A stretch of DNA of 41,571 nt from Clostridia bacterium. GTDB lineage: Bacteria > Bacillota > Clostridia > TANB77 > RGIG9151. The position numbers and the translations under genes are program-made. The notes below the pieces were generated by a model. It was not told the DNA's origin. It saw nothing but the letters and a program-made list of their open reading frames with translations, and ran no database searches. Location: the NCBI GenBank assembly GCA_017450465.1, contig JAFSUW010000029.1, positions 1 through 41,571 of the forward strand, given 5' to 3'. Of the stretch, positions 32,563 to 37,984 are shown one piece after another (position 1 is the stretch's first letter; each line of letters opens with the position of its first letter).

Positions 32563-33579
32563 ATGTCAGTTAGAGTAGCCATTAATGGTTTCGGACGTAT
32601 AGGTCGTTTAGCATTCAGACAAATGTTTGGAGCAGAAGGTTATGAAATTGTTGCTATCAACGATTTAACAAGTCCAGATATGCTAGCACACTTATTAAAG
32701 TATGACTCAGCACAAAAAAGATACGAGAAGGCTGATACAGTAGTAGCCGGAGAAAATTCTATCACAGTAGATGGAAAGACAATTAGAATCTATGCAGAAA
32801 AGGATGCAAAGGACTTACCTTGGGGTGAGTTAAATGTAGATGTTGTTCTAGAATGCACAGGTTTTTATACATCAAAGGAAAAAGCTCAAGCTCACATCGA
32901 TGCTGGAGCTAAAAAAGTTGTTATTTCTGCACCAGCAGGAAAAGACTTACCAACAGTAGTTTATGGTGTAAATGAAAAAATTCTTACAAAGGACGATACA
33001 ATTATTTCAGCTGCATCATGTACAACAAACTGTTTAGCACCTATGGCAAAAGCATTAAATGATTATGCTCCTATTCAATCAGGAATCATGTCAACAATTC
33101 ACGCTTACACAGGTGACCAAATGTTACTTGATGGTCCACATAGAAAAGGTGATTTAAGACGTGCAAGAGCTGCAGCAATCAACATTGTTCCTAACTCAAC
33201 AGGTGCTGCAAAAGCTATCGGTCTTGTTATTCCAGAATTAAACGGAAAACTTATCGGTTCTGCACAAAGAGTTCCAGTTCCAACAGGTTCAACAACTATC
33301 TTAGTTGCTGTTGTAAAAGGACATGATATAACACCAGAATCAATCAATGCTGCAATGAAGTCACAAGTTAGTGAATCATTCGGCTATACAGAAGAACTTT
33401 TAGTTTCATCTGATGTTGTTGGTATGAGATATGGTTCATTATTTGATGCTACACAAACAATGGTTACACAAATTAGTGATGATTTATATCAAGTTCAAGT
33501 TGTTGCTTGGTATGATAACGAAAATTCTTACACAAGTCAAATGGTAAGAACAATTAAGTATTTCGCAGAATTAAATTAA
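32563..33579 (+). CDS. gap: Glyceraldehyde-3-phosphate dehydrogenase
   Basis: Oxidises glyceraldehyde-3-phosphate to 1,3-bisphosphoglycerate with NAD. The 338 residues show the NAD-binding GFGRIGR (9-15), catalytic cysteine C153 in [32 protein letters not shown] and a terminal [13 protein letters not shown] chose ATG at 32563, seven bases after AGGAGG; the longer frame would include the promoter. Codon use looks highly expressed. It faces the pgk-tpiA-gpmI operon on the other strand instead of leading it. Confidence 0.97.
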
Positions 33580-33622: not shown

Positions 33623-33649
33623 AAAAAGGGCGATTAATAATCGCCCTTT
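33623..33649 (-). terminator. Terminator after gpmI
   Basis: AAAGGGCGATT (33625-33635) and AATCGCCCTTT (33639-33649) are exact complements; TTTTT follows on the minus strand. It lies directly before the gap terminator, insulating the convergent operons. Confidence 0.85.
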
Positions 33650-33652
33650 CAT

Positions 33653-35188
33653 TTATTCTTCAATTAAACTATTTCCTGTCATTTCTACTGGTTTTTCTAT
33701 TCCCATTACTTCAAGCATTGTTGGTGCTATATCACATAATGCACCATTTTTTACTTTCTTTACGTCTGTTCCTATCAAAATAAATGGCGTATCATTTGTT
33801 GTATGTGATGTTACAGGTTCGTTTGTTTCGTAATTAAACATTACATCGGCATTTCCATGGTCTGATGTAATTAATACTGCACCATCTTGTTTTAATACAG
33901 CATCTACTACTTTTCCTACACATTCATCTACTGTTTCTACCGCTTTTATTGCTGCTTCCATAACTCCTGTGTGGCCTACCATATCTGGGTTTGCAAAGTT
34001 TAGTATTACTGCATTATATTTGCCAGTATTTATTGCTTCTACTGCTTTCTCTGTTACTTCATAAGCACTCATCTCTGGTTGTAAGTCGTAAGTTGCTACC
34101 TTTGGTGAAGGAACTAATATTCTATCTTCGCCTTCACAAACATGCTCAACACCGCCATTAAAGAAGAATGTTACGTGTGCATATTTTTCAGTTTCAGCAA
34201 TTCTTAACTGCTTTAATCCTAAACCACTTATATATTCGCCGAATTTATTTTTTAGCTCCTCTGGCTTAAATGCTACATATACATTTGTTAAGTTTTCATC
34301 ATATTGTCTCATGCATACATAGTATAGTGGAAATTTTCCTTTTGGTCTATCAAATCCCTCAAATTCGTCATTCATTAATGACCAAGTGAGTTCCCTTGCT
34401 CTATCAGTCCTAAAGTTAAAGAATATTATTGAATCATTTGGTTCTATTGTTGCAACTGGTTTGCCGTTTTCAGTAATTACAAATGGTTTTACAAATTCAT
34501 CTGTTTCATTTCTTGCATATGAAGTTTCAATCGCCTCAACTGCTGAATTTGCCTTTTCGCCTTCTCCTAACACTAATGCATCATAAGCAAGTTTTAATCT
34601 TTCCCAACGTTTATCGCGGTCCATTGCGTAGTATCTACCAGTTACTGTAGCTATCTTTCCTACGCCAATTTCCTTCATTTTTGCTTCTAGCGCTTCTATA
34701 TAACCTTTCCCTGATGTTGGTGGTACATCCCTACCATCTGTAAAGCAGTGAACATATACTTCTTTTAATCCATTATCTTTAGCAAGTTTTAATAATGCAT
34801 ATATGTGCTCTATATGACTATGTACTCCTCCATCTGATACTAAACCGTATAAATGTAGCTTCGTACCATTTTTCTTACAATTTTCTATTGCGCCTAAAAA
34901 TTCTTCTTTTTTGAAGAAATCTCCATCATCAATTGATTTAGATATCTTGGCAAGATCTTGATATACAACTCTTCCTGCACCTAAATTCATGTGCCCTACT
35001 TCTGAAGTACCCATTTGGCCTTCCGGAAGTCCTACAGCAAGCCCTGCTGTTTTTATTCTTGAATGTGGATACTTTTCAATGTATGAATCTAGGTTTGGTT
35101 TTTTTGCATTTTTTATTGCATTACCACGCGTTTCTGGGTTTATACCGAAACCGTCCATTATTATTAATGTAACTAATTTTTTGTTCAT
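33653..35188 (-). CDS. gpmI: 2,3-bisphosphoglycerate-independent phosphoglycerate mutase
   Basis: Interconverts 3- and 2-phosphoglycerate through a phosphoserine intermediate with two manganese ions; alkaline-phosphatase superfamily. Motifs include IIMDGFGINP (metal Asp), GTSEVGHMNLGAGR (nucleophile Ser), HSHIEHIY, GRDVPPTSG, GRYYAMDRD, and near the end ADPDMVGHTG in its form NFANPDMVGHTG plus ITSDHGNAD. The 511 residues are normal. I chose ATG at 35188, after AAAGG; the longer frame adds seven residues. It is last in the operon and follows tpiA by 21 bases. Confidence 0.96.
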   Translation of the reverse strand: MNKKLVTLIIMDGFGINPETRGNAIKNAKKPNLDSYIEKYPHSRIKTAGLAVGLPEGQMGTSEVGHMNLGAGRVVYQDLAKISKSIDDGDFFKKEEFLGAIENCKKNGTKLHLYGLVSDGGVHSHIEHIYALLKLAKDNGLKEVYVHCFTDGRDVPPTSGKGYIEALEAKMKEIGVGKIATVTGRYYAMDRDKRWERLKLAYDALVLGEGEKANSAVEAIETSYARNETDEFVKPFVITENGKPVATIEPNDSIIFFNFRTDRARELTWSLMNDEFEGFDRPKGKFPLYYVCMRQYDENLTNVYVAFKPEELKNKFGEYISGLGLKQLRIAETEKYAHVTFFFNGGVEHVCEGEDRILVPSPKVATYDLQPEMSAYEVTEKAVEAINTGKYNAVILNFANPDMVGHTGVMEAAIKAVETVDECVGKVVDAVLKQDGAVLITSDHGNADVMFNYETNEPVTSHTTNDTPFILIGTDVKKVKNGALCDIAPTMLEVMGIEKPVEMTGNSLIEE

Positions 35189-35209: not shown

Positions 35210-35956
35210 TTAATATTTAACTATTGCTGTAAAGTCGTCTATTTTTAAGCTTGCTCCACCAACTAATCCACCGTCTATATCTGTTGTTGTAAATAATTCG
35301 TTTGCATTTGCTGGTTTTACACTTCCACCATATTGAATTCTAATATTTTCTGCAACTTCTTTATTGTATAATTTTTCAACTACACTTCTAATAAACTTAC
35401 AAGCATCGTTTGCATCTGTTGATGATGCTGTCTTACCTGTTCCTATTGCCCATACTGGCTCATATGCAATTACCATTTTGCTTACAGCATCCGCTGGTAT
35501 ATCTTTTAATGCGCCTACTGTTTGTGTTTCAAGTACTGTATTTGTTGTTCCTGCTTCTCTTTGTTCTAGAGTTTCACCTACACATACGATTGGTTTTAAT
35601 TCATATTTAAGTGCTGCTTTTAATCTATTATTTACTGTTTCATCTGTTTCAGCAAAATATTGTCTTCTTTCTGAGTGACCAATTATAACATAATCTACGC
35701 CGATTTCTTTTAACATTTCGCCTGAAATTTCTCCAGTAAATGCTCCGTTATCAGCCCAGTGAATATTTTGTGCACCTACTTTTATGTTTGTTCCTTTTGC
35801 AGCTGCTACTGCATCTTTTAAGCATACAAATGTAGGACATACTACTACATCCCCCTCTACTCCTAACACCTTATCTTTTAATTCATTAATAAATGAAACT
35901 GTTTCTGATGGTGTTTTATTCATCTTCCAGTTTCCTGCAATAATTTTTTTACGCAT
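35210..35956 (-). CDS. tpiA: Triosephosphate isomerase
   Basis: Interconverts dihydroxyacetone phosphate and glyceraldehyde-3-phosphate. The 248-residue barrel shows AGNWKMNKT (7-15 region, Lys), IGHSERRQYF (catalytic His), VIAYEPVWAIGTGKTAS (catalytic Glu and flexible loop), IQYGGSVKPANA and DGGLVGGASL. RBS GGAGG is 11 bases before ATG. It is separated from the HEPN gene by only two bases on the minus strand, so its expression is tied to that gene and to pgk upstream. Confidence 0.97.
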   Translation of the reverse strand: MRKKIIAGNWKMNKTPSETVSFINELKDKVLGVEGDVVVCPTFVCLKDAVAAAKGTNIKVGAQNIHWADNGAFTGEISGEMLKEIGVDYVIIGHSERRQYFAETDETVNNRLKAALKYELKPIVCVGETLEQREAGTTNTVLETQTVGALKDIPADAVSKMVIAYEPVWAIGTGKTASSTDANDACKFIRSVVEKLYNKEVAENIRIQYGGSVKPANANELFTTTDIDGGLVGGASLKIDDFTAIVKY

Positions 35957-35958
35957 AA

Positions 35959-36354
35959 TTACTCATTCCTCCCTAATACTTTATTTACACTACTCAAAAT
36001 ATTACTTGCAATTTCTATACAAGCATTTGCTTCATCATTTGTAACTACTATTTGATTTTCGTTTGGATATCTTGTTTCTGTATAATAACCATTTAATACT
36101 GCACAATCTTTTACTTTATCCTTAAAAGTCTCATCTTTTTCAGAAATCTTTTTACACAAATATATTAAACTATGTCCAGACTCAAGCGAAGAAAAATAGT
36201 ATAAAATAAGTGCTTTTAATGCTTTCTCAACAGCTTGCTGACAATGGAATGCAACTATCTCGTTACCACAATCATTTTCAAATAAAACTTTTGCGGCTTT
36301 TAAATCTTTAATAGCTTTTTCTATCCATTCAGTTACTATTAAACTATCACCCAT
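35959..36354 (-). CDS. HEPN domain protein
   Basis: Small all-helical HEPN domain (about residues 7-120): WIEKAIKDLKAAKVLFEN, then AFHCQQAVEKALKALILYY, the family hallmark, and YYTETRYPNENQ. The canonical RX4-6H ribonuclease motif of toxic HEPN proteins is not apparent: the Arg of ETRYPNENQ is not followed by a suitably spaced His. I chose ATG at 36354, which overlaps the MNT stop codon by eight bases (coupled translation); an ATG 18 bases upstream is also possible. HEPN and MNT genes often act as toxin and antitoxin, or as nucleotide-modifying pairs. Its place inside a glycolytic operon is unusual. Confidence 0.82.
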   Translation of the reverse strand: MGDSLIVTEWIEKAIKDLKAAKVLFENDCGNEIVAFHCQQAVEKALKALILYYFSSLESGHSLIYLCKKISEKDETFKDKVKDCAVLNGYYTETRYPNENQIVVTNDEANACIEIASNILSSVNKVLGRNE

Positions 36355-36658
36355 ATATCGTCTTCCCTTCATTTAATATTTTGTATAAAAAAGATAATTT
36401 TTCATCTTTATATTTTAAATACTCATCCATTGTATAAACTATTATATCTACAGGATATTTTGAATCTATTTTTAAGTACATATCTGCTATTAACTTCCTC
36501 TTGTTTTCAGTTTTTGTTATTATACACAAATCTATATCACTAGTTTCTTTTATTCTCTGTTTGGCTAGTGAACCAAATAAAATAATTTTAAAAGGAGAAT
36601 ATAACTCCACTATTTGATTTTTTACATTATGAAGTTCCTCCATAAATTCATCAAACAT
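36347..36658 (-). CDS. MNT-type nucleotidyltransferase domain protein
   Basis: Minimal nucleotidyltransferase of 103 residues. The signature GSX10DXD is intact: FGSLAKQRIKETSDIDLC (GS at about 28-29, DID at about 40-42), and a third acidic residue is expected in PVDIIVYT. Such proteins transfer AMP or other nucleotides to a partner, commonly to a HEPN toxin, to neutralise it. RBS GAGGAGG precedes ATG, 20 bases after the pgk stop. It is probably the antitoxin-like member of the pair with the downstream HEPN gene, by analogy with the MntA/HepT systems. Confidence 0.87.
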   Translation of the reverse strand: MFDEFMEELHNVKNQIVELYSPFKIILFGSLAKQRIKETSDIDLCIITKTENKRKLIADMYLKIDSKYPVDIIVYTMDEYLKYKDEKLSFLYKILNEGKTIYG

Positions 36659-36678: not shown

Positions 36679-37860
36679 TTACTTATCATTTAGTGCTGCA
36701 ATACCTGGGAGTACTTTTCCTTCAATAAATTCTAATGATGCTCCACCACCTGTTGATACGTGTGTCATCTTATCTGATAAACCGAATTTTTCAACTGCAG
36801 CTGCTGAATCTCCACCACCGATTATTGTTGTTGCTGCTGTGTTTTCAGCAAGTGCCTTTGCTACTTCTATTGTACCTGTAGCAAATGGTGTAAGTTCTGA
36901 AAATCCCATAGGTCCATTCCAGATTACTGTCTTAGCAGTTTTTATTACTTCTTTAAATTGCTCTATTGATTTTGGTCCTATATCTAAACCTTCTAAATCG
37001 TCTGGTATTTCTTTTGAATTATATATAGATGTTGTAGCATTTTCAGATATATCGCTTGCACAAACTGAATCTTCAGGGAAATACATCTTTACGCCCTTTG
37101 CTTTTGCTTTATCTAATATTTCACGTGCTAAATCTAATTTATCATCTTCACAAAGTGATTTACCAATCTTTCCGCCTACTGCTTTAGCAAATGTATATGC
37201 CATTCCGCCACCGATTATTATTGCATCTACTTTTTCAAGTAAGTTTTCAATTACACCAATTTTTGATGAAACTTTTGCTCCACCTAAAATTGCTACGAAT
37301 GGTCTTTCTGGGTTTTCAAGTGCATTACCCATTATTCCTATTTCTTTTTGAATTAAGTAACCACATACAGCTGGTAAATATGCTGCTACTCCTGCTGTTG
37401 AAGCATGTGCACGGTGTGCTGTTCCAAATGCATCATTTACATATATTTCAGCAAGTGAAGCAAGTTCTTTTGAAAATGCTGGATCGTTTGCTTCCTCTTC
37501 TTCGTGGATACGAACGTTTTCAAGTAACATTACATCTCCATCATTTAATGCAGCTGCTTTACTCTTTGCATCTTCGCCTACTACATCTTTTGCAAATGGT
37601 ACTTCGCGGTTAAGTAACTCTGAAAGTCTTTTTGCAACTGGTAGTAATGTTTGCTTGTCCTTTGTCTTACCTATATGTGAACAAAGAATAACTTTTGCTC
37701 CATGCTCCATTAAATATTTAATTGTTGGAAGTGCTTCTGTTATTCTTCTATCGTCAGTTATTTTTGTTTTGTCGTTAACATCTAGAGGCACGTTAAAATC
37801 GCAACGTACTAATACTTTTTTCCCTTTCACATCGATATCTTCAATCGTCTTTTTATTCAT
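36679..37860 (-). CDS. pgk: Phosphoglycerate kinase
   Basis: Transfers the acyl phosphate of 1,3-bisphosphoglycerate to ADP. The 393-residue protein has [12 protein letters not shown] near 15-26, [47 protein letters not shown] and the nucleotide-binding WNGPMGFSE and [13 protein letters not shown]. It heads the operon, from the promoter at 37896-37924, with RBS GGAGG. Between it and tpiA lie the MNT and HEPN genes rather than the direct pgk-tpiA junction common in Firmicutes. Confidence 0.97.
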
Positions 37861-37953: not shown

Positions 37954-37984
37954 CAAAAAAGGAGCGACTTATAATCGCTCCTTA
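37954..37984 (-). terminator. Terminator after the M16 peptidase-like pair
   Basis: AAGGAGCGA (37959-37967) and TCGCTCCTT (37975-37983) are complementary and a T-run follows on the minus strand. It separates the M16 genes from pgk. Confidence 0.85.

Follow-up and report, generated by a model that had tools for sequence, protein, structure and literature searches.

The DNA analysed (hereafter the window, 41,571 nucleotides of one contig of a Clostridia bacterium) carries on its minus strand five genes arranged head to tail in the order pgk–MNT–HEPN–tpiA–gpmI. The upstream gene of this operon is pgk (phosphoglycerate kinase, 36679..37860; homologous pgk ORFs occur in 35 of the 37 genomes searched), followed after 20 nt by the gene of a minimal nucleotidyltransferase (MNT, 36347..36658, 103 aa, with FGS-X10-DID and D71) and then by that of a class II HEPN protein (35959..36354, 131 aa, without RX4-6H). 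The MNT stop and the HEPN start overlap by 8 nt (ATGGGTGA, 36347..36354), allowing, in principle, translational coupling of the two, and 2 nt separate HEPN from tpiA (triosephosphate isomerase, 35210..35956), whose Shine-Dalgarno-like GGGAGGA lies within the final HEPN codons. The last operon gene, gpmI (phosphoglycerate mutase, 33653..35188), adjoins tpiA, a neighbourhood conserved in the order. A second in-frame ATG of the HEPN ORF, at 36372, is likewise open; the start at 36354 is backed by the HEPN of a sister genus, which begins at the equivalent ATG. ORFs, sequence and Pfam matches confirm what the first-pass annotation had read here, i.e., a HEPN/MNT pair between pgk and tpiA with gaps of 20 and two bases, an overlap of eight bases and a GSX10DXD signature.

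The overlap, the 2-nt gap between HEPN and tpiA and the GGGAGGA inside HEPN together indicate one expression unit. A consensus scan predicted terminator-like hairpins just upstream of pgk (37959..37983, minus strand) and between the convergent gpmI and gapA (33625..33649, palindromic and reported on the plus strand), the latter closing the unit, and found none on the coding strand from pgk to gpmI. The same scan counted 25 promoter-like sites in the window against 22.8 ± 5.0 in shuffled sequence, i.e., no excess, so we do not claim a separate promoter for the pair; Rfam yielded no RNA elements in the window. The genes from pgk to gpmI are very probably co-transcribed as one long transcript, in keeping with the earlier suggestion that expression of the pair is tied to glycolytic transcription. 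High expression is not indicated, as the CAI of the pair (0.61-0.62) is like that of ordinary window genes and below that of pgk and tpiA (0.74-0.78).

Class II affiliation of the two proteins

The HEPN protein matches PF05168 far beyond chance (E 6.4e-30, 104 bits against a cut-off of 22); no match to PF01934 or PF08780 was reported at E up to 0.1, and NCBIfam gave it no name. Class I pairs comprise PF01934 or PF08780 proteins with RX4HXY (the MntA/HepT type VII system), and class II pairs comprise PF05168 proteins without RX4HXY and with a conserved Tyr (PMC7641770). Because its HEPN belongs to PF05168, the window pair is, on domain content, a class II HEPN/MNT module, whereas MntA/HepT, the comparison originally offered for it, is class I (RX4HXY). 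MntA/HepT (PF01934 or PF08780 with PF01909) does share the MNT-then-HEPN layout, GSX10DXD and the third Asp, but it has a different HEPN family and carries RX4HXY, and HepT structures match much more weakly. The class II modules described previously (PMC7641770) resemble the window pair in their PF05168 HEPN, GSX10DXD MNT, lack of RX4HXY, conserved Tyr and adjacent, usually upstream, MNT; the window pair differs from them in sitting inside pgk-tpiA-gpmI and in having a sister-genus counterpart with the MNT core deleted and HEPN retained. Motif scanning in that study used 9,583 class II HEPN/MNT sequences and its toxicity panel consisted of class I pairs only (PMC7641770); in the literature searched, we found no toxicity, AMP-transfer or other functional test of a class II pair.

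The MNT protein matches PF18765 (Polbeta, E 4.3e-12) and PF01909 (E 1.3e-10), again far beyond chance, and its catalytic set (G29, S30, D41, D43 and the third Asp, D71) does not vary across ten aligned MNTs; its AlphaFold model is confident (pLDDT 96.3). It scored below the cut-off of the NCBIfam MntA equivalog (34.4 vs 60 bits). Its PADLOC matches were to candidate NTase profiles (PDC-S09, PDC-M05A) and not to a named defence system.

The HEPN model is confident as well (pLDDT 92.5), and its best Foldseek matches are PF05168-type structures, i.e., ST0689 (1wol), TT1696 (1ufb), the sacsin HEPN (3o10) and AF0298 (2hsb), with TM (by query length) of 0.74-0.84, class I HepT entries scoring far weaker. 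These proteins share family and fold with the window HEPN but occur in other contexts. Conserved positions are W10, Q39-Q40, E43-K44, K47, H61 and R95-Y96-P97: among 115 unique relatives, H61 is kept in 99%, R95 in 98%, Y96 in 100% (of the rows covering that column), E43 in 99%, K44 in 99% and K47 in 100%, and W10 falls within the same 98-100% set. All invariant residues of both proteins are retained in the window pair. The site of RX4HXY reads RYPNENQI in the window HEPN, with the His absent, and the first-pass annotation was correct in noting that RX4-6H is missing. It went on to suggest that this protein may not be a ribonuclease toxin, but the missing motif does not single it out as inactive, given that none of the 115 unique relatives has RX4-6H at the expected place. 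Such absence is typical of the family without being absolute, TT1696 of Thermus having RYPDAH (an RX4H) where the window HEPN has RYPNEN. In some PF05168-type proteins that lack this His, a different conserved His is present and might make up an alternative site together with the Arg (PMC3710099); H61 (with R95) would be the obvious candidate here.

Distribution and history of the pair

Comparison of the operon among relatives, which the first-pass annotation had proposed, located a HEPN gene after pgk in the window genome (G000) and in G001, a sister genus of the same family, only (30 pgk loci). The only close HEPN in 385 genomes of the order is that of G001, all others being at most 41% identical, and apart from G001, pgk was not found near any of the HEPN relatives fetched from these genomes, nor near those from 391 genomes of the class, nor near HEPN in 80 public genome loci with flanks of up to 5 kb. 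Across these loci and genomes the pair at pgk is restricted to one family, and it is not an ancient, neutral neighbour shared by most Clostridia, as had been contemplated beforehand. In the HEPN tree the window and G001 proteins are sisters (support 100/99; branch lengths 0.37 and 0.58, respectively) and they occupy the same operon site; tree and site together show a single origin of the two at pgk. The nearest free-standing pairs (three loci, L153-L155) are 49-54% identical, belong to other families and have MNT upstream, in unrelated neighbourhoods with no pgk near. Between window and G001, dN is higher for HEPN (0.35) than for pgk (0.20) and tpiA (0.12), which fits the vertical descent of a faster gene. 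In G002, a congener of G001, tpiA comes directly after pgk and no HEPN match was found. The simplest history, which rests on three species of the family and thus on a small sample, would be one entry of the pair in the family ancestor followed by loss in the G002 line.

The pgk of G002 has a C-terminal extension of ~23 residues (EGPEKEEAKQYTTSRPKDVELDR, L150:9460-9541, G002:C25), located exactly where the pair would sit and possibly a scar of its loss.

A joint horizontal movement of the pair and pgk is not favoured: identity of the window pgk reaches 80% with another family, f4, against 74% with G001, yet the HEPNs of window and G001 are sisters. The window pgk is 77-80% identical to the pgk of several f4 members vs 74-75% to that of its own family, whereas tpiA is closer to its own family (75-84% vs 52-62%). 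The gapA of the window (32563-33579, plus strand) is 90% identical to that of G015, a member of another family whose pgk is just 62% identical, and 42-47% identical to the gapA that adjoins pgk in G001 and in the majority of the order. There are thus two gapA types, and horizontal transfer of gapA is probable.

A sister genus keeps HEPN beside an MNT relic

In G001, a 37-codon in-frame ORF (MFEEFMKEAERIKEQILEYYSPFILAHFIVGEIIYER) follows pgk, and its first part corresponds to the N-terminus of MNT (28 aa, 54% identity, E 3.6e-5; alignment score 81 against a maximum of 50 in 5000 shuffles). This relic has lost the GS and Asp motifs, and its stop overlaps the HEPN start. No MNT core survives near the G001 HEPN, the only one found being a class I MNT downstream of gpmI. 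The HEPN itself is full length and 59% identical to that of the window, and keeps E43, K44, K47, H61, R95, Y96 and P97, with Cys replacing the otherwise universal W10. Its pN of 0.28 vs a pS of 0.74 shows purifying constraint, although a comparison of two HEPN sequences gives no date for the loss of MNT, and the constraint may partly be older than that loss. The MNT core, and not HEPN, has been lost at this locus.

One could read the pair as a strict, type VII-like addiction module, in which HEPN is a lethal RNase that the adjacent MNT must AMPylate, and the pair is guarded against loss by residing in a glycolytic operon that is essential. Class I relatives do act in this manner (PMC7641770, PMC11586414), the window MNT is upstream and overlapping with its catalytic motif intact, and in 112 of 118 loci MNT adjoins HEPN in the same orientation. 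A HEPN without MNT is rare: the exceptions are G001 (three loci that overlap), one HEPN at a contig edge, one truncated copy and a single further locus. We nevertheless regard this reading as unlikely: the G001 HEPN is kept intact with the MNT core deleted, which argues against strict addiction and strict toxicity, the pair was lost from, or never present in, G002, and RX4-6H is absent throughout the 115 relatives. The G001 locus weakens rather than excludes strict addiction, for contig C34 of this draft assembly encodes another class II MNT (40% identical to that of the window) that might act in trans on the G001 HEPN. The same locus weakens the earlier idea that neutralisation, too, may be coupled to transcription of the glycolytic genes, and it suggests that the supposed class II toxin need not be lethal.

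Rather improbable, in our judgement, is that HEPN is an accessory subunit working with MNT and not a toxin. Such a role was proposed early for MNT-HEPN proteins (PMC2701414, PMC3710099) and agrees with a HEPN that is devoid of the canonical RNase motif, but a HEPN that survives in G001, under constraint, without its own MNT is hard to explain in these terms unless it serves another MNT.

G001 harbors a second pair directly after gpmI (L149:5980-6641, G001:C14), consisting of a class I MNT and a PF08780 HEPN (E 7e-35) with RNELSHIY, i.e., RX4HXY. Like the window pair it is a HEPN/MNT pair beside the same glycolytic genes, but its HEPN family and motif differ and it is an independent insertion, so that in this family one glycolytic operon has received two unrelated HEPN/MNT modules. 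On the same contig (L149:9986-10093), a 36-aa 5' fragment of tpiA with a broken frame is found upstream of the intact tpiA, flanked by two membrane-protein ORFs that resemble each other; it looks like the scar of a tandem duplication.

Cargo genes at the pgk–tpiA junction

Non-glycolytic ORFs come directly after pgk in ~9 of the 28 other pgk loci, about a third of the order, and comprise LytB/IspH, GcpE, NUDIX together with guanylate kinase, an HD-domain protein and membrane proteins. The junction tolerates cargo genes, of which the HEPN/MNT pair is one of several types. Since so many unrelated genes occur there, location by itself is weak evidence of a glycolytic role, and we rejected inferring such a role from location alone.

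This variety of cargo, the decay of MNT in G001 and the absence of the pair from G002 could all be taken to mean that the pair is a neutral passenger, i.e., a functionless insertion decaying in the family. That, too, seems improbable, because both window ORFs are intact and retain every invariant residue, and HEPN pN is far below pS.

Proposed function of the pair

We postulate, with a probability of roughly 0.65, that the pair is a mobile class II toxin-antitoxin-like module that was captured once between pgk and tpiA and is now decaying or being domesticated. A PF05168/PF01909-type module would have been acquired at this junction in the family ancestor and would now be translated together with the glycolytic genes of the operon. 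We infer nucleotidyl transfer, RNA activity and toxicity of the pair from class I systems (PMC7641770, PMC11586414). MNT would transfer AMP to HEPN, the candidate acceptor being Y96, a family-invariant Tyr beside R95, and the unmodified HEPN could bind or cleave RNA via an alternative site composed of H61, R95 and E43 of helix 2. Most likely, AMP modification by MNT would restrain a modest RNA-directed activity of HEPN, and the HEPN retained in the MNT-less G001 may act as a regulator, mild or domesticated, and not as an addictive killer.

A more specific version, in which the class II HEPN of this family, now domesticated, would by itself regulate the glycolytic operon that carries it by binding or cleaving RNA, its activity being set by MNT AMPylation (tracking ATP) in the window genome and this control being dispensable in the sister genus, strikes us as improbable. 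If HEPN did act on glycolytic mRNA, a toxin-antitoxin-type protein would have been put to a new use. G001 offers a natural experiment on whether class II HEPN proteins are toxins, with two actual proteins available for comparison.

Pairs of class II are a known and abundant kind, and what is unusual here is the location in a glycolytic operon together with the MNT-less locus of the sister genus. Close to the end of one contig, the window genome contains another class II MNT-HEPN pair (L002:628-1326, G000:C1), adjoining an ORF that by eye resembles an IS200/REP-type transposase. Clustered modules are seen again in G642, a genome of the same class, where a HEPN/MNT pair that by eye is PF08780-like lies alongside a class II MNT-HEPN pair (L155:367-1905).
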